NCBI RefSeq assembly: GCF_009711185.1
Contig: NZ_WMIF01000016.1
Location: 1-64,000, forward strand
DNA: 64,000 nucleotides
Direction: 5' to 3'
Origin: Paracoccus limosus
GTDB taxonomy: Bacteria; Pseudomonadota; Alphaproteobacteria; Rhodobacterales; Rhodobacteraceae
Part shown: piece after piece, positions 14,933-48,091 of the stretch
Layout of the letters: each line of letters starts with the position of its first letter
Position numbering within the stretch: position 1 is the stretch's first letter
Program-made: the position numbers and the translations under genes
The notes under the pieces: model-generated
What the model saw: the letters and a program-made list of their open reading frames with translations, nothing else
The model's database searches: none
Told to the model about the DNA's origin: nothing

Positions 14933-16222
14933 TCAGCGCCGCCCTGCCTCCAGAGCGTCCTCGAAGGTGCGCAGCCCGGTGACCGGCGACTGCACCAGCA
15001 CCGCCATGTTGCCGGGCTTGTGCTGGTTGCGCAGCATCTTCAGATGCGCGGCCGGGATCTCGGCCCAGGGGAAGACTTCGGACATGCAGGGGTCGATCCG
15101 GCGCTCCAGCATCAGTTTGTTGGCTGCCGACGCCTGTTTCAGATGCGCGAAATGGCTGCCTTGCAGGCGCTTCTGGTGCATCCACATGTAGCGCACGTCA
15201 AAGGTGCAGTTGAAACCCGAGGTGCCGGCGCAGATCACCACCATGCCGCCCTTTTTGCAGACCAGCGTCGAGACCGGGAAGGTCGCCTCGCCGGGATGCT
15301 CAAAGACGATGTCGACGTTGTTGCCCTTGCCGGTGATGTCCCAGATCGCCTTGCCGAACTTGCGCGCCTCGGTGAACCAGTCCTTGTATTCGGGCGTGTT
15401 CACCGTGGGCAGTTGCCCCCAGCACTTGAAGTCCTTGCGGTTGATGACGCCCTTGGCGCCCAGCGACATGACGAATTCGCGCTTGTCCTCTTCCGAGATG
15501 ACGCCGATGGCATTGGCGCCGGCAGCGTTGATCAGCTGGATCGCGAACGAGCCAAGCCCGCCCGAGGCGCCCCAGACCAACACGTTCATGCCCGGTTTCA
15601 GCTCATGCGGCTCATGGCCGAACAGCATCCGGTAGGCGGTGGCCAGCGTCAGCGTGTAGCAGGCCGATTCCTCCCAGGTCAGATGCTTGGGCCGCTTCAT
15701 CAGTTGCTGCGCCTGCACGCGGGTGAATTGCGCGAACGATCCGTCCGGCGTCTCATAGCCCCAGATGCGCTGGCTGGGCGAGAACATCGGATCGCCGCCG
15801 TTGCATTCCTCGTCATTGCCGTCGTCCTGATTGCAATGGACCACGACCTCGTCGCCGACCTTCCAGTTCTTGACCTTGTCACCGACCGCCCAGACGATGC
15901 CCGAGGCATCCGAGCCCGCAATGTGATAGGGCGCGCCATGGCCGTCAAACGGGCTGATCGGAACGCCCAGACCGGCCCAGATGCCGTTGTAGTTGACGCC
16001 CGCCGCCATCACCAGAACCAGCACCTCGTTGCTGTCGATGCTGGGGGTTTCGACGACTTCGACCTGCATGGCCTTGTCGGGCTCGCCATGGCGCTCGCGG
16101 CGAATGGCCCAAGCATACATCGAGCGGGGCACATAGCCCAGAGGCGGCATTTCGCCGACCTCGTAAAGATCCTTTTGCGGCGCATCGTAAGGTGCGATCG
16201 TCGTCGGTGCGTCGAGGGCCAT
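14933..16222 (-). CDS. ccr: Crotonyl-CoA carboxylase/reductase
   Basis: Protein of 429 residues that reductively carboxylates crotonyl-CoA with CO2 and NADPH to ethylmalonyl-CoA, the key step of the ethylmalonyl-CoA pathway for acetate assimilation. It belongs to the medium-chain dehydrogenase fold: a GroES-like start (VMAAGVNYNGIWAGLG), the nucleotide motif WGASGGLGSFAIQL, and Ccr-specific stretches such as HCNQDDGNDEECNGGDPMFS and FEHPGEATFPVS. ATG at 16222 follows AGGAG at good spacing. The pathway partner ecm lies 2.6 kb away, and the divergent intergenic region carries several repeats that may bind a regulator. Confidence 0.96.
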   Translation of the reverse strand: MALDAPTTIAPYDAPQKDLYEVGEMPPLGYVPRSMYAWAIRRERHGEPDKAMQVEVVETPSIDSNEVLVLVMAAGVNYNGIWAGLGVPISPFDGHGAPYHIAGSDASGIVWAVGDKVKNWKVGDEVVVHCNQDDGNDEECNGGDPMFSPSQRIWGYETPDGSFAQFTRVQAQQLMKRPKHLTWEESACYTLTLATAYRMLFGHEPHELKPGMNVLVWGASGGLGSFAIQLINAAGANAIGVISEEDKREFVMSLGAKGVINRKDFKCWGQLPTVNTPEYKDWFTEARKFGKAIWDITGKGNNVDIVFEHPGEATFPVSTLVCKKGGMVVICAGTSGFNCTFDVRYMWMHQKRLQGSHFAHLKQASAANKLMLERRIDPCMSEVFPWAEIPAAHLKMLRNQHKPGNMAVLVQSPVTGLRTFEDALEAGRR

Positions 16223-16287
16223 CTGCTTCTCCTGCATTGCCGCGCCGCAGAATCGGCCCGGCCATTGCGGTATAGCTAGCGGTGCTC

Positions 16288-16327
16288 GCGCAACATTGCA
16301 ACCGTTTGCGACGGTAAATGCGCAACA
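16288..16327. promoter_or_regulatory. Repeat cluster upstream of ccr
   Basis: Two copies of GCGCAACA (16288-16295 and 16320-16327) flank TTGCAA (16296-16301), TTTGCGA (16305-16311) and the inverted repeat ACCGT/ACGGT around 16302-16316. TTTGCAAA-type half sites are known for ScfR/RamB-family acyl-CoA regulators in this group. The match here is partial, so the assignment is inference. Confidence 0.45.
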
Positions 16328-16400
16328 ATATGACCAAAGGTCAGGGTTTCGGCGGGCTTCTAGCTGCGATGCAGCACAGGGTCTGGCGGTAACTCTTTTG

Positions 16401-16414
16401 AAATGCGGCGATTT
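16401..16414 (+). promoter_or_regulatory. 14-bp motif shared with the ecm promoter region
   Basis: AAATGCGGCGATTT lies between the divergent ccr and acyltransferase genes and recurs exactly at 18693-18706 upstream of ecm. It is a candidate binding site for a regulator common to the two ethylmalonyl-CoA pathway genes. Confidence 0.5.
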
Positions 16415-16445
16415 CTGATATGTAGAATATGCCTGCCAGCTGCAT

Positions 16446-17564
16446 TTGCGGGCAGTTTCCCCTGTTCCTGTATCGAGTGCGTCTGTGACATCGACAGCTT
16501 TTCCCGCGACAAGCCGCCCGGCGGCCCCGGCCCGTCCGGCCGATCTGCCCATCGAAACCGTTCGCGCCATCGCCATTCTGGTGCTGGTCAGCTTTCACGT
16601 CATTGGCGGGGATGGCGGCGGCGGCGGGCGCGGGCTTGGCGTCACCTATCCGCATCCGCTGCGCTACTATGCCGATCTGCTGGTCGACATCCGCATGCCG
16701 CTCTTTGCCTTCGTCGCAGGCGTCGTCTACGCGCTGAAGCCGGTCGAGCCGGCGCAGCTTGGCCGCTTTCTTCTGGGCAAGCTGCGCCGGCTGGCCGTGC
16801 CCGGCATCACCGTCTTCATGCTGATGGCCGTGGTCATGGGCTCGCGCGAGGGGCGGATCATCACCCATCCCTGGGATGCCTATCTGCATCATTACGCGAT
16901 CTTCTGGTTCCTGCAGGTGATGCTGGTGATCTTTGTCACCTATGGCACGCTCGACATCCTGACGCGGGGCCGGGTCCTGCTGCCCGCGCTGGCGCTGGCC
17001 CTGCTGGCGCTGGCGATGGGCTGGCGCTTTGACGCCACTTTCCTTGCGCTGAACCGCTATACGCATCTGATGGCCTATTTCCTGCTGGGCGTGGCCTTCT
17101 GCCGCTATCAGCCGCTGGTGCAGCGCCGGCGCGGCCTTGTGCTTGCGGTGGCGCTGGCCGCACTGGCGGCGGGGCTTGCGATGAATCTGGCAGTGCTGAA
17201 CCAGACCGGCGCCTTTTCGACCGAGCGGCTGGACCTGCAAAGCCTGCTGCTGGGTAGCGGCACCAGCGTCGCGGCCTTTCTGCTGCTGCCGTCGCTGCGC
17301 TGGCTGTCCTGGCTGGGGGCCTATTCGCTGACCATCTATCTTTACCACATCCTGTTCACCTCGACGGCGCGGCGGGTGCTGTTCTCGGCCGGCATCGATT
17401 CGCCATGGGCGCATGTGCTGATCGGCACGGCGCTGGGCATCAGCCTGCCGATCGCGCTGCATCTGCTCAGCAACCGCTTCCGGCTCAGCCGCCTGCTGGT
17501 GCTGGGGCTGCGCGACCGCAATGCGGGCCAACGCCGCGCGGCCGGGGCCATGGCCACCGCCTAG
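16446..17564 (+). CDS. Acyltransferase 3 family membrane protein
   Basis: Membrane protein of up to 372 residues with about ten hydrophobic helices. The N-terminal helix with a conserved His (AIAILVLVSFHVIGG) and the arginine-containing IRMPLFAFVAG segment are marks of the acyltransferase-3 family, which O-acylates surface sugars, peptidoglycan or lipids. The start is unclear: TTG at 16446 and GTG at 16485 are both in frame, without a strong ribosome site. The gene lies between ccr and ecm but no link to that pathway is evident. It is convergent with the alpha/beta hydrolase, 11 bp away. Confidence 0.8.
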   Translation: MRAVSPVPVSSASVTSTAFPATSRPAAPARPADLPIETVRAIAILVLVSFHVIGGDGGGGGRGLGVTYPHPLRYYADLLVDIRMPLFAFVAGVVYALKPVEPAQLGRFLLGKLRRLAVPGITVFMLMAVVMGSREGRIITHPWDAYLHHYAIFWFLQVMLVIFVTYGTLDILTRGRVLLPALALALLALAMGWRFDATFLALNRYTHLMAYFLLGVAFCRYQPLVQRRRGLVLAVALAALAAGLAMNLAVLNQTGAFSTERLDLQSLLLGSGTSVAAFLLLPSLRWLSWLGAYSLTIYLYHILFTSTARRVLFSAGIDSPWAHVLIGTALGISLPIALHLLSNRFRLSRLLVLGLRDRNAGQRRAAGAMATA

Positions 17565-17575
17565 GGGCGCGCCGT

Positions 17576-18466
17576 TCAGCTTCTGGTCGCGCCCAGATGG
17601 CGCGACAGGAACGCCGCCAGCTGCTCCATCAGCGCCGGGCTGCCAAAGGCGCGGGTGCCATGCCCTTCGCCCTGCAACAGCGCAAAGTCGATCTCGGCCG
17701 AGGGGTCGGCGCGGTGCCATGCCTTGCGCAGCCGCTCGGCCTGACCGGCCGAGACGATGCTGTCGGCGGTGCCATGCCGGATCATCAGCGGCGGCAGGCG
17801 CAGCCCGTCCAGCCCCGCCAGCCTGCCGACCGGGCCCATGGCGGTGGCCTCGCTGCGGCGCTGGCCGACGGCATAGCCGATCAGCAGCGATTCGACGCTG
17901 CCCGGGTCATCGGCGGGCGGGCGCTGAAAGCGGATGCCAAGGCTGGCCATGTCGGCATCCATGCTGCCGAAATCCATCGGCCCATAGAAATCCACCACCG
18001 CCGCCAGAGGATGACCGCTTTCCACCATGCTCAGCGCCGCCGAAACCGCCATGAACGCCCCGGCCGACCGCCCGCCGATGGCCAGCCGCCCCGGCACCAG
18101 TCCCAGCTCGGCGGCGTGGGCCTGCAGAAAACCCGCCGCGTTCAGCACGTCCTCTTGTTGCGCCGGCCAGCGCGCCTGATTCGACAGCCGGTAGTTCATC
18201 CGCACCACGGCGATGCCCGCCTCCAGCAGCCGCTGCGGCACCGGCAGTTGCCGCTTGTCGCCGGTCAGGAAGCCGCCGCCATGGATGTCCAGCAGCGCCG
18301 GAAACGGGCCCGCGCCTTCGGGGCGGTGAATGTCCAGCAGGTTGCGTGGCGAATGATCGGAATAGGCCATTTCGATCAGCTGCGCCTTGGCCAGTCCGGC
18401 CTGCGCCAAAGCCGTCGCCGGAATCGATCCGGCCAGAACCGCAAGCATCCTGCGGCGGGTCAGCAT
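17576..18466 (-). CDS. Alpha/beta hydrolase (esterase-like), exported
   Basis: Protein of 296 residues. The N terminus MLTRRRMLAVLAGSIPATALAQA resembles a twin-arginine or Sec signal, so export is likely. The hydrolase core shows the oxyanion loop DIHGGGFLTGDK and the nucleophile elbow IGGRSAGAF (GxSxG); the later RHGTADSIVSAGQ and GEGHGTRAF supply the likely Asp and His. This matches the BD-FAE/esterase-lipase group, cleaving small carboxyl or acetyl esters. The true substrate is unknown. Its upstream region is shared with the divergent ecm gene. Confidence 0.82.
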   Translation of the reverse strand: MLTRRRMLAVLAGSIPATALAQAGLAKAQLIEMAYSDHSPRNLLDIHRPEGAGPFPALLDIHGGGFLTGDKRQLPVPQRLLEAGIAVVRMNYRLSNQARWPAQQEDVLNAAGFLQAHAAELGLVPGRLAIGGRSAGAFMAVSAALSMVESGHPLAAVVDFYGPMDFGSMDADMASLGIRFQRPPADDPGSVESLLIGYAVGQRRSEATAMGPVGRLAGLDGLRLPPLMIRHGTADSIVSAGQAERLRKAWHRADPSAEIDFALLQGEGHGTRAFGSPALMEQLAAFLSRHLGATRS

Positions 18467-18787
18467 CCTGGTCTCCTGCCCCTGCGTTCGATTGCGCTCA
18501 GGCTAACATTCCTGACGCCAGCCGCAACCGCGCCGCAGCGCGGCACGGGGCAAGGCAGCCGGGGAATTGCCGGCAAAACCGGCGCCGTGCGTGGAGTTGC
18601 ATGACCAAAGGGCAGGGCCAGAGCGTCGCCCGGCGACCGGCCGCACACCGACGCCAGACCCGCCGCAGCCGCAGATCACCCCATCGCCGCGCAAATGCGG
18701 CGATTTTCTGCAATGCGGCGAATTGACGGCGCATCATTGTTACGATACCGCTATTCATGTCGTAATAATCTTGCGAAGGGACTGGCC
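18467..18787. promoter_or_regulatory. Intergenic region between the alpha/beta hydrolase and ecm, with operators
   Basis: This 321-bp gap holds no gene. Near ecm it carries a 7-bp-arm palindrome TCGCCGC-N6-GCGGCGA (18684-18703), a second half site GCGGCGA (18715-18721) exactly 18 bp on, and a TTGACG at 18723-18728 that could be a -35 element. Inverted repeat TTACGA/TCGTAA occupies 18740-18765. The 14-mer AAATGCGGCGATTT (18693-18706) is shared with the ccr side. Ribosome site AAGGGA precedes the GTG start of ecm. Confidence 0.55.
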
Positions 18788-20746
18788 GTGGCCGAGAAAG
18801 ACAAACCCTGGCTCTTCCGCACCTATGCGGGGCACTCGACCGCCGAGAAATCGAACGCGCTTTACCGCACCAATCTGGCCAAGGGCCAGACCGGGCTTTC
18901 GGTGGCCTTCGACCTGCCGACCCAGACCGGCTATGACAGCGACCATGTGCTGGCGCGGGGCGAGGTCGGCAAGGTCGGCGTGCCGGTCTGCCATCTGGGC
19001 GACATGCGCGCGCTCTTCGACCAGATCCCGCTGGAACAGATGAACACCTCGATGACGATCAACGCCACCGCGCCGTGGCTGCTGTCGCTTTACATCGCCG
19101 TAGCCGAAGAGCAGGGCGCGGACGTGTCCAAGCTGCAAGGCACGGTCCAGAACGACATCATCAAGGAATACCTGTCGCGCGGCACCTATATCTGCCCGCC
19201 GAAACCGTCGCTGAAGATGATCACCGACGTCGCGGCCTATACGGCAAAGAGCCTGCCGAAATGGAACCCGATGAACGTCTGTTCCTATCACCTGCAAGAG
19301 GCCGGCGCGACGCCCGAGCAGGAGCTGGCCTATGCCTTGGCCACCGGCATCGCGGTGCTGGACGACCTGAAAGACAAGGTCGAACCCAAGGACTTCCCGA
19401 ACATGGTCGGCCGCATCTCGTTCTTCGTGAACGCCGGCATCCGCTTCGTGACCGAACTGTGCAAGATGCGGGCCTTTACCGAGCTCTGGGACGAGATCTG
19501 TCAGGAGCGCTACGGCATCGAGGAGGAAAGATACCGCCGCTTCCGCTATGGCGTGCAGGTGAACAGCCTCGGCCTGACCGAGCAGCAGCCCGAAAACAAC
19601 GTCTACCGCATCCTTCTGGAAATGCTGGCAGTGACGCTGTCGAAAAACGCCCGCGCCCGCGCTGTTCAGCTGCCGGCCTGGAACGAGGCGCTGGGCCTGC
19701 CGCGCCCCTGGGACCAGCAATGGTCGCTGCGCATGCAACAGATCGTCGCCTATGAAACCGACCTTCTGGAATACGGCGATCTCTTCGACGGCAACCCCGC
19801 CATCGCCGCAAAGGTCGAGGAACTGAAAGCCGGCGCCCGCGCCGAGCTGGAGACGCTGGACCAGATGGGCGGCGCCATCGCCTCGATCGAATACATGAAA
19901 TCGCGGCTGGTCGAATCGAATGCCGCCCGGCTGAACCGGATCGAGGCCAATGAAACCGTCGTCGTCGGCGTCAACCGCTGGCAACAGGGCGAACCCTCGC
20001 CGCTGACGGCGGGCGATGGCGGCATCATGGTGGTCGATCCGGCGGTCGAGCAGGACCAGATTGCCCGGCTTGACGCTTGGCGGCAGGCCCGCGACGAGAC
20101 GGCCGTCGAGGCCGCCCTCGTCGCGCTGCGCGAAGCCGCGCAGAAGGGGCAAAACGTGATGCCGTTCTCGGTCGTCGCCGCCAAGGCGGGTGCCACCACC
20201 GGCGAATGGGCACAGGTCATGCGCGAGGTCCATGGCGAATATCGCGGCCCGACGGGCGTGTCGCAAAGCCCCTCGAACCGCACCGAAGGGCTTGAGCCGA
20301 TCCGCGAGGCCGTCGATGCCGTCAGTCAGCGCCTTGGCCGCCGGCTGAAATTCCTGGTCGGCAAGCCCGGCCTCGACGGCCATTCCAACGGCGCCGAACA
20401 GATCGCCTTCCGCGCCCGCGACTGCGGCATGGACATCACCTACGAAGGCATCCGCCTGACCCCCGAACAGATCGTCGCCCGCGCGGCCGAGGAAGACGCC
20501 CATATCGTCGGCCTGTCGATCCTGTCGGGCAGCCACCTGCCGCTGATCGAGGATTTGATGGCCCGCATCCAGGCGGCGGGCCTTGCGCATGTGCCGGTGG
20601 TGGTCGGTGGCATTATCCCCGACGAGGATGCCGCCCGGCTCCGCGCCATGGGCGTGGCCCGCGTCTATACGCCCAAGGATTTCGAGCTGAACCGCATCAT
20701 GATGGATATTGTGGCGCTGGTCACGCCCAGCGAGGCGGCTGCCTGA
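18788..20746 (+). CDS. ecm: Ethylmalonyl-CoA mutase, B12-dependent
   Basis: Protein of 652 residues that converts ethylmalonyl-CoA to methylsuccinyl-CoA, the step after Ccr and epimerase. It is a one-chain acyl-CoA mutase: a barrel domain beginning WLFRTYAGHSTAEKSNALYR, then a C-terminal cobalamin domain with the DxHxxG motif DGHSNG at about residue 530 and VVGGIIPDEDA near the end. Length and the single chain fit the Ecm/MeaA group rather than two-subunit methylmalonyl-CoA mutase. GTG at 18788 has AAGGGA at good distance; an upstream ATG would add about 30 residues not expected for the family. Confidence 0.93.
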   Translation: MAEKDKPWLFRTYAGHSTAEKSNALYRTNLAKGQTGLSVAFDLPTQTGYDSDHVLARGEVGKVGVPVCHLGDMRALFDQIPLEQMNTSMTINATAPWLLSLYIAVAEEQGADVSKLQGTVQNDIIKEYLSRGTYICPPKPSLKMITDVAAYTAKSLPKWNPMNVCSYHLQEAGATPEQELAYALATGIAVLDDLKDKVEPKDFPNMVGRISFFVNAGIRFVTELCKMRAFTELWDEICQERYGIEEERYRRFRYGVQVNSLGLTEQQPENNVYRILLEMLAVTLSKNARARAVQLPAWNEALGLPRPWDQQWSLRMQQIVAYETDLLEYGDLFDGNPAIAAKVEELKAGARAELETLDQMGGAIASIEYMKSRLVESNAARLNRIEANETVVVGVNRWQQGEPSPLTAGDGGIMVVDPAVEQDQIARLDAWRQARDETAVEAALVALREAAQKGQNVMPFSVVAAKAGATTGEWAQVMREVHGEYRGPTGVSQSPSNRTEGLEPIREAVDAVSQRLGRRLKFLVGKPGLDGHSNGAEQIAFRARDCGMDITYEGIRLTPEQIVARAAEEDAHIVGLSILSGSHLPLIEDLMARIQAAGLAHVPVVVGGIIPDEDAARLRAMGVARVYTPKDFELNRIMMDIVALVTPSEAAA

Positions 20747-20766
20747 TCCGGTGGTGGGGTCAGCAT

Positions 20767-20848
20767 GGGTATTTGAAAAATGGTGAAGACAGGCGCCGCG
20801 CTGCAGGAGAGGCGCGTGGCCTGCAGCTTCACCATTTCAAAAATACCC
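20767..20848. repeat. Dispersed palindromic repeat, copy 1
   Basis: Inverted arms GGGTATTTGAAAAATGGTGA (from 20767) and its near-complement ending AAAATACCC (20848) enclose about 40 bp. Located between ecm and the AhpD-like gene, convergent 3' ends, where it could act as a bidirectional terminator. A close copy lies at 48092-48156. Confidence 0.8.
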
Positions 20849-20885
20849 AATGCGACCGCTGCAAAAGGCGTGGCGACGTCTGGTT

Positions 20886-48089: not shown

Positions 48090-48091
48090 AT

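Follow-up and report, generated by a model that had tools for sequence, protein, structure and literature searches.

Two conserved palindromes, one of PhaR type, upstream of the ethylmalonyl-CoA pathway genes ccr and ecm in Paracoccus limosus

The ccr-ecm locus

In the 64,000-nucleotide stretch of Paracoccus limosus DNA that we analysed (contig NZ_WMIF01000016.1, positions 1 to 64,000; the window), the genes ccr and ecm of the ethylmalonyl-coenzyme A (EMC) pathway are divergent: ccr starts at 16222 and is read leftward, ecm starts at 18788 and is read rightward, and the gap holds an acyltransferase gene and a hydrolase gene (Table 1). These two neighbours enable Paracoccus-type bacteria to make cell material from acetate. 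The ecm product shares 93.4% identity with a protein of P. ferrooxidans that bears the annotation 'protein meaA'. A preliminary description of the window had noted a 14-bp motif repeated before both genes and proposed that it marks a common regulator. Conserved sites shared by ccr and ecm are well supported, but they are two other palindromes and not the 14-mer. We consider it probable, from the sequence comparisons given below, that ccr and ecm are co-regulated through these two distinct operators, the first being a box of PhaR, the regulator linked with polyhydroxybutyrate (PHB) granules.

For comparison, 80 ecm loci with flanks were taken from named records; in 72 of these, ccr is divergent from ecm at a distance of about 0.2-4 kb. 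The ecm upstream set (n = 80, window included) leaves out L029, whose row begins inside the gene. The ccr upstream set (n = 73, window included) lacks L008, L016, L029, L061, L062, L070, L072 and L078, where ccr was not found.

Table 1. Genes and sequence elements of the ccr-ecm region (window coordinates)
Feature	Position	Strand	Evidence or remark
ccr, crotonyl-CoA carboxylase/reductase	14933..16222	-	TIGR01751 609.5 bits (cut-off 378.55)
ecm, meaA-type B12 mutase, GTG start	18788..20746	+	Pfam MM_CoA_mutase and B12-binding
PhaR-type box of ecm, CTGC-AAT-GCGG	18708..18718	+	80/80 ecm upstreams; matrix 19.7
-35-like TTGACG of ecm	18723..18728	+	sequence; conserved column block GAATTGAC
PhaR-type box in ccr leader, CTGC-GGC-GCGG	16240..16250	-	73/73 ccr upstreams; matrix 19.5
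Distal PhaR-type box of ccr, CTGC-ATC-GCAG	16364..16374	-	matrix 11.0; similar boxes in aligned L291, L292, L293, L295
Second palindrome, ecm 5' region, CGTAATAATCTTGCG	18761..18775	+	same 15 letters, opposite strand, before Mcl2-like gene
Second palindrome, inverted copy at ecm	18730..18744	-	directly after -35-like hexamer
Second palindrome, copy before ccr, GGTCATATTGTTGCG	16321..16335	-	
14-mer copy 1, AAATGCGGCGATTT	16401..16414	+	exact; not conserved; without full PhaR box
14-mer copy 2, AAATGCGGCGATTT	18693..18706	+	exact; not conserved; palindrome arms spaced 6 bp, not N3 as in PhaR box
Acyltransferase (Acyl_transf_3), between ccr and ecm	16446..17564	+	Pfam
Alpha/beta hydrolase, between ccr and ecm	17576..18466	-	Pfam

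The PhaR-type box

The pattern YYGCRNYGCRR occurs within 200 bp upstream of the gene in every region of both sets (80/80 ecm, 73/73 ccr), compared with 5.6% of 610 other upstream regions and with shuffle means of 5.0 ecm and 3.3 ccr regions. Because a 200-bp window can hold both boxes where a short intergenic region is shared, the test was rerun with shorter windows; the box was still present in 80/80 ecm regions within 160 bp (4.6% of the others) and in 73/73 ccr regions within 100 bp (3.1%). A stricter form was found in 60/80 ecm and 73/73 ccr regions, against shuffle means of 0.2 and 0.2 and 0.7% of the controls, with the box patterns and the distance limits all chosen post hoc. When the same halves were placed at other spacings, N2 (4 ecm, 1 ccr) and N5 (8, 5) fell under the shuffle means of 10-13 and N7 (17, 12) lay slightly over the mean. 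Raised counts were obtained with N1 (48, 43), N4 (22, 39) and most strongly N6 (76, 59); the N6 excess, and perhaps that of N1, arises because the palindrome itself is extended and GC-rich.

The ecm box lies 4 bp 5' of the -35-like hexamer of a presumed promoter, and the box of ccr is 18-28 bp from the start of the gene, in the presumed leader. The conserved blocks read TGCCGC-RNY-GCRGCGAATTGAC upstream of ecm and CGATTCTGC-RNY-GCGGCA in the ccr leader; the pattern used to anchor the sequence logos already requires a central R and Y, which makes these two columns conserved by construction. Three ecm loci (L026, L027, L033) retain GC-N3-GCAGC although their -35 is altered, and in two others (L056, L067) the box is present at a shifted position. 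Genome-wide, TKCYGCRNYGCRGMR matches 36 places (49 strand matches) against 13 for the reversed control. Of the 36 places, 14 were assigned to coding sequence by the gene finder, and for at least two, the one in the ccr leader and one of the phaP boxes, this call is wrong, so a list of genome sites is weak without conservation.

PhaR is encoded in this genome (L114:4725-5318; TIGR01848 156.2 bits, cut-off 109.45; PF07879 and PF05233 also above cut-off) and was detected in 57 of 61 genomes of the genus. The phaC-phaP intergenic region of this genome carries two boxes, as do the phaP loci of relatives (30/30 examined, the best 30 of 57 matching genomes among 61 searched). We trained a matrix on 61 phaP boxes alone, ccr and ecm never being included. 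With this matrix, 74/80 ecm and 73/73 ccr upstream regions scored above the control 99th percentile, and the area under the curve (AUC) for the ccr/ecm sites was 0.996 and 0.997. The top sites in the window were 18704-18722 (19.7), 16236-16254 (19.5) and 16360-16378 (11.0), the next one being 45372 (8.4).

The motif of Rhodobacter sphaeroides PhaR is CTGCNNNGCAG, and that of Sinorhizobium meliloti PhaR has the core YGCRNYGCR (PMC12542648). The consensus of Bradyrhizobium diazoefficiens PhaR is NGCN3GC[GA]N3 (PMC10888616). The box of the PhaR (AniA) regulon, CTGCN3GCAG, is the same palindrome as here, where the centre is R-N-Y. In S. meliloti, PhaR sites lie near the -35 or between the -10 and the transcript start (PMC12542648), and the phasin promoters here have two copies. 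Taken together, these comparisons make PhaR the best candidate regulator for the GC palindrome before ccr and ecm.

The box is also found before a gene of the CitE/HpcH family, which we take to be an Mcl2-like malyl-CoA thioesterase gene (in NCBIfam it has a sub-threshold citE match only); here it was present in 25 of 30 loci, mostly at about -75 (the best 30 of 60 matching genomes, 61 searched). We rejected the idea that the whole pathway shares the box, since among the pathway genes examined (ccr, ecm, the Mcl2-like gene and mcl1) mcl1 lacks it. The gene that we take to be mcl1 has the Pfam domain HpcH_HpaI. The likeness of TGCGGCGATTTTCT in the phaR promoter of the window genome to the 14-mer region of ecm was not counted, boxes being mostly absent in 30 phaR loci. 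Many of the closer phaR loci share a recurrent GGCGATTTTCTTTGC, which is perhaps a -35 region.

The second palindrome and the 14-mer

The second palindrome, GYAA-N5-TTRC, forms an inverted pair at ecm (18730-18744 and 18761-18775) that flanks the presumed -10. The strict pattern GWMANAWTSTTGCG, derived from the sites at ccr, ecm and the Mcl2-like gene together with the ecm sites of two relatives, has four genome matches, one each upstream of the Mcl2-like gene, pntA, ccr and ecm; three of these four went into its making, which leaves pntA as the sole independent match. When one mismatch was allowed, 37 genome matches were obtained (13 for the reversed control); phaB and the second arm at ecm are among the 37, and so are intragenic sites. 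A matrix was trained on 79 ecm sites (L056 had no room), so that its ecm score is no test; the 99th percentile of the controls was exceeded by 59 of 73 ccr upstream regions (taken to 130 bp). The element before pntA was retained in four of five other records (P. denitrificans, P. pantotrophus, P. ferrooxidans and P. versutus, with P. ferrooxidans and P. versutus near-identical at pntA) and was absent from the plasmid copy of Paracoccus sp. MA. The phaB element was retained in two of three (P. tegillarcae and Ruegeria sp. TM1040) and was absent from the plasmid copy of P. zhejiangensis. These eight records were chosen out of 151 for pntA and 44 for phaB, both genes being named after annotated relatives. 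The second palindrome is thus shared by ccr, ecm, the Mcl2-like lyase gene, pntA and phaB, and it would belong to a second regulator, possibly of the ScfR family.

The 14-mer AAATGCGGCGATTT is present at both places where the preliminary description had located it, and so are the 7-bp-arm palindrome at ecm (TCGCCGC/GCGGCGA at 18684-18690 and 18697-18703, separated by 6 bp) and the -35-like TTGACG. The 'second half site' said to lie 18 bp further on does correspond to a third copy with two mismatches (18711-18724), but this is really the right arm of the conserved box at 18708-18718. Copy 1 lies 179 bp 5' of the ccr start and is closer to the divergent acyltransferase gene, which makes its assignment to the ccr promoter doubtful. 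Allowing two mismatches, the window has three matches (0.51 expected; 2 of 100 window shuffles reach three), and allowing one, the whole 3.9-Mb genome has the two exact places only. The longest word common to both intergenic regions is 14 letters, a length equalled in 2 of 400 resampled pairs. Repeated 14-mers number 507 in the window, against 95-130 in ten resampled windows, and those with at least eight A/T, like the present one, number 16 against 0-2; ten of the 16 belong to a single longer repeat at 20765/48090. The 14-mer repeat is unusual, yet not overwhelmingly so given its post-hoc choice.

Conservation does not extend to the 14-mer. In the 153 ccr and ecm upstream regions it was found only in the window itself, an outcome that the preliminary description had named as refuting its proposal. 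In 124 other genomes of the genus, the 291 bp around the ccr-side copy found matches in nine relatives; all of these alignments stop by 16341, before the copy is reached; alignments with a few near relatives retained neither copy. The 13-mer core AATGCGGCGAWTT has 61 matches in 121 genomes of the genus against none for its reversed control; this control includes TTWA, a word seldom found in DNA of this kind, and is biased for that reason. Thirty of these 61 loci were examined: the window itself accounts for one, the ecm site for three (L088, L089, L112) and a place before phaR for one (L109), and the remaining 25 lie near none of ecm, ccr and phaR. The L109 match (G031:C5:141835-141847, AATGCGGCGATTT) lies about 60 bp 5' of phaR in that one relative. 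On the two 14-mer copies the phaP-trained matrix scored -23.8 and -21.8; in the wider stretch 16380-16440 it reached 2.5, at a place other than the 14-mer. We therefore rejected the 14-mer as a conserved operator, its copies being unconserved in relatives and strongly negative in matrix score. It appears instead to be a by-standing partial copy of one of the two conserved operators, an account that belongs to the explanation we hold probable as a whole.

Candidate regulators and alternative explanations

PhaR represses phasin genes and quits the DNA for PHB granules (PMC12542648). In a PHB-free cell, PhaR would sit on the ccr leader and on the ecm -35 region. Once PHB accumulates it would depart, releasing ccr, ecm and probably the malyl-CoA-lyase-like gene together with phasin, and higher Ccr and Ecm would be expected. 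The C4-CoA branch point, PHB storage or EMC assimilation, would in this way be coupled to storage status. A box at the ecm -35 and another in the ccr leader fit repression, and the bracketing of the presumed ecm -10 by the second element suits a repressor too. Activation by PhaR has also been reported in B. diazoefficiens (PMC10888616), so the direction of control at ccr and ecm could be either. The putative second regulator would have as its targets, marked by the second operator, phaB, ccr, ecm, the lyase-like gene and, for the supply of NADPH, pntA; acetoacetyl-CoA reductase, Ccr, Ecm, the lyase and NADPH transhydrogenase form one metabolic unit. We lean slightly towards a two-input circuit in the Rhodobacterales, in which PhaR gates ccr, ecm and the malyl-CoA-lyase gene and the regulator of GYAA-N5-TTRC unites phaB, ccr, ecm, the lyase gene and pntAB. 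Such a circuit would link carbon storage with acetate assimilation at their common branch point. With two precisely placed, conserved operators and a named candidate for one of them, the control of the EMC pathway becomes directly testable. From the second operator a small regulon is predicted, made up of phaB, ccr, ecm, the lyase gene and pntAB, which could serve to fish for its regulator.

The box is of a known kind, and its targets here differ from those of the PhaR regulon in being EMC pathway genes. No published report of EMC genes as PhaR targets was found within the openly licensed PubMed Central literature, as far as its texts were available, and the ccr and ecm targets are new within that literature. 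In a study of acetate assimilation by P. denitrificans, EMC genes co-varied and a regulator site was mapped only at the glyoxylate-cycle operon; PhaR and PHB go unmentioned in its main text (PMC10370305).

Several results weigh against the proposed role of PhaR. In a P. denitrificans ramB mutant, mcl-1 moves with ccr and ecm (PMC10370305), and the mcl1 of the window genome has no PhaR-type box, so PhaR would not be the sole link among these genes; the second element is weak there as well (10.8, below the control 99th percentile of 13.1). P. denitrificans itself scores lower with the phaP-trained matrix (ccr 7.8, ecm 12.5), nonetheless above the control 99th percentiles of 4.2 and 7.3. Both elements score poorly in Methylobacterium aquaticum (1.9 and -2.2). 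Among 30 distinct phaR loci (the best 30 of 57 matching genomes), only 9 carry a loose box in the phaR promoter and 6 the core; counted by rows, the loose box is present in 10 of 31, since L109 and L175 are one site. Four of the 61 genus genomes (G016, G033, G040, G060), all fragmented assemblies of 270-620 contigs, have neither a PhaR nor a PhaP match, and the box of the Mcl2-like gene is kept in G016 and G040 and missing in G060. Finally, the 610 control upstream regions come from a home-made gene finder and include some wrong starts. Neither the origin of the pattern nor the choice of loci alters our estimate, since the results of the phaP-trained matrix and the sites at pntA and phaB are independent of both.

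The absence of the GC palindrome from mcl1 and from most phaR promoters would also be expected if a regulator other than PhaR, preferring the same core, bound it at ccr and ecm, whose sites have flanks of their own (CGATTCTGC... and ...GCGAATTGAC). The matrix built from phasin boxes alone recovers these sites with the AUC given above and their core equals the published PhaR motifs, which leaves such a regulator rather unlikely. RamB was rejected as a binder of the GC palindrome, its box letters differing by eye. A stronger case, though still a doubtful one, is that the second palindrome alone coordinates ccr and ecm as a site of an ScfR-family protein (RamB, PccR or a paralogue) or of a TetR protein like CcrR. 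The P. denitrificans ScfR-family regulator RamB controls acetate assimilation, its loss alters ccr and ecm expression, and deletion of ramB raises both; the site tested for RamB belongs to the glyoxylate-cycle operon (PMC10370305). CcrR of Methylobacterium extorquens, of the TetR family, is reported to activate ccr. RamB has two boxes 18 bp apart, and the paired boxes at ecm are 16 bp apart. However, the mapped RamB box, judged by eye from the oligonucleotide letters, looks unlike either element here, including GYAA-N5-TTRC, the ecm pair is inverted, and a regulator of the second palindrome alone leaves the conserved GC palindrome unexplained.

Two further explanations concern the 14-mer. That it is itself the operator of a dedicated ccr/ecm regulator, as first proposed, is suggested by its restriction to two genome places within one mismatch, both in this cluster, and by the rarity of so long a shared word. 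We regard this as very improbable, given its absence from all other ccr and ecm upstream regions, its failure to align in the nearest relatives, the mostly unrelated positions of its core in the genus and its negative scores. The copy at 16401 might instead descend from a duplicate of the ecm box and of the edge of its promoter, which stayed behind when ccr and ecm were separated by inserted genes and has since decayed. It reads TTGA-AAT-GCGGCGATTT where ecm has CTGC-AAT-GCGGCGAATT, and many Paracoccus loci have divergent ccr and ecm with a single shared intergenic region. Two genes lie between ccr and ecm in the window, the hydrolase only in six relatives and a distant acyltransferase only in two. 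Two near-repeats, ATGACCAAAGG and the 14-mer, also stand in the same order on both sides. On the other hand, the stretches between the near-repeats look unrelated by eye and the relatives examined include no intermediate, and we think this origin unlikely. Our preference stays with two conserved operators, PhaR probably acting at the first.

Some minor observations may be added. The near-repeat ATGACCAAAGG(T/G)CAGGG occurs at 16330-16346 and 18601-18617 (identity 16/17), before both 14-mer copies with the order preserved, and may be a remnant of the insertion that set the two genes apart. Another palindrome resembling the box, TGCCGCGCTGCGGCG, lies at 18531-18545 on the minus strand, 65 bp before the hydrolase start. 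Upstream of ccr in M. aquaticum (L306), at a distance of about 50 bp from the start, there is GGTGCAGTGCAAT, with a weak TGC-N3-GCA core. PhaR-type boxes were seen 122 and 33 bp 5' of two patatin-family genes (L147 and L140; Pfam), which are candidates for PHB turnover. Two tandem boxes (L137/L138, G000:C3:29094-29130) precede an open reading frame of about 50 aa 3' of a gene that we take to be sdhB-like, and a box-like site precedes a transporter gene that is presumably amtB-like. Downstream of ecm, a repeat starting ATGGGTATTTGAAAAATGGTGAA (20765-20850) is seen again at 48090; by eye it is part of a long stem-loop, and it may be a terminator or a small repeat element.

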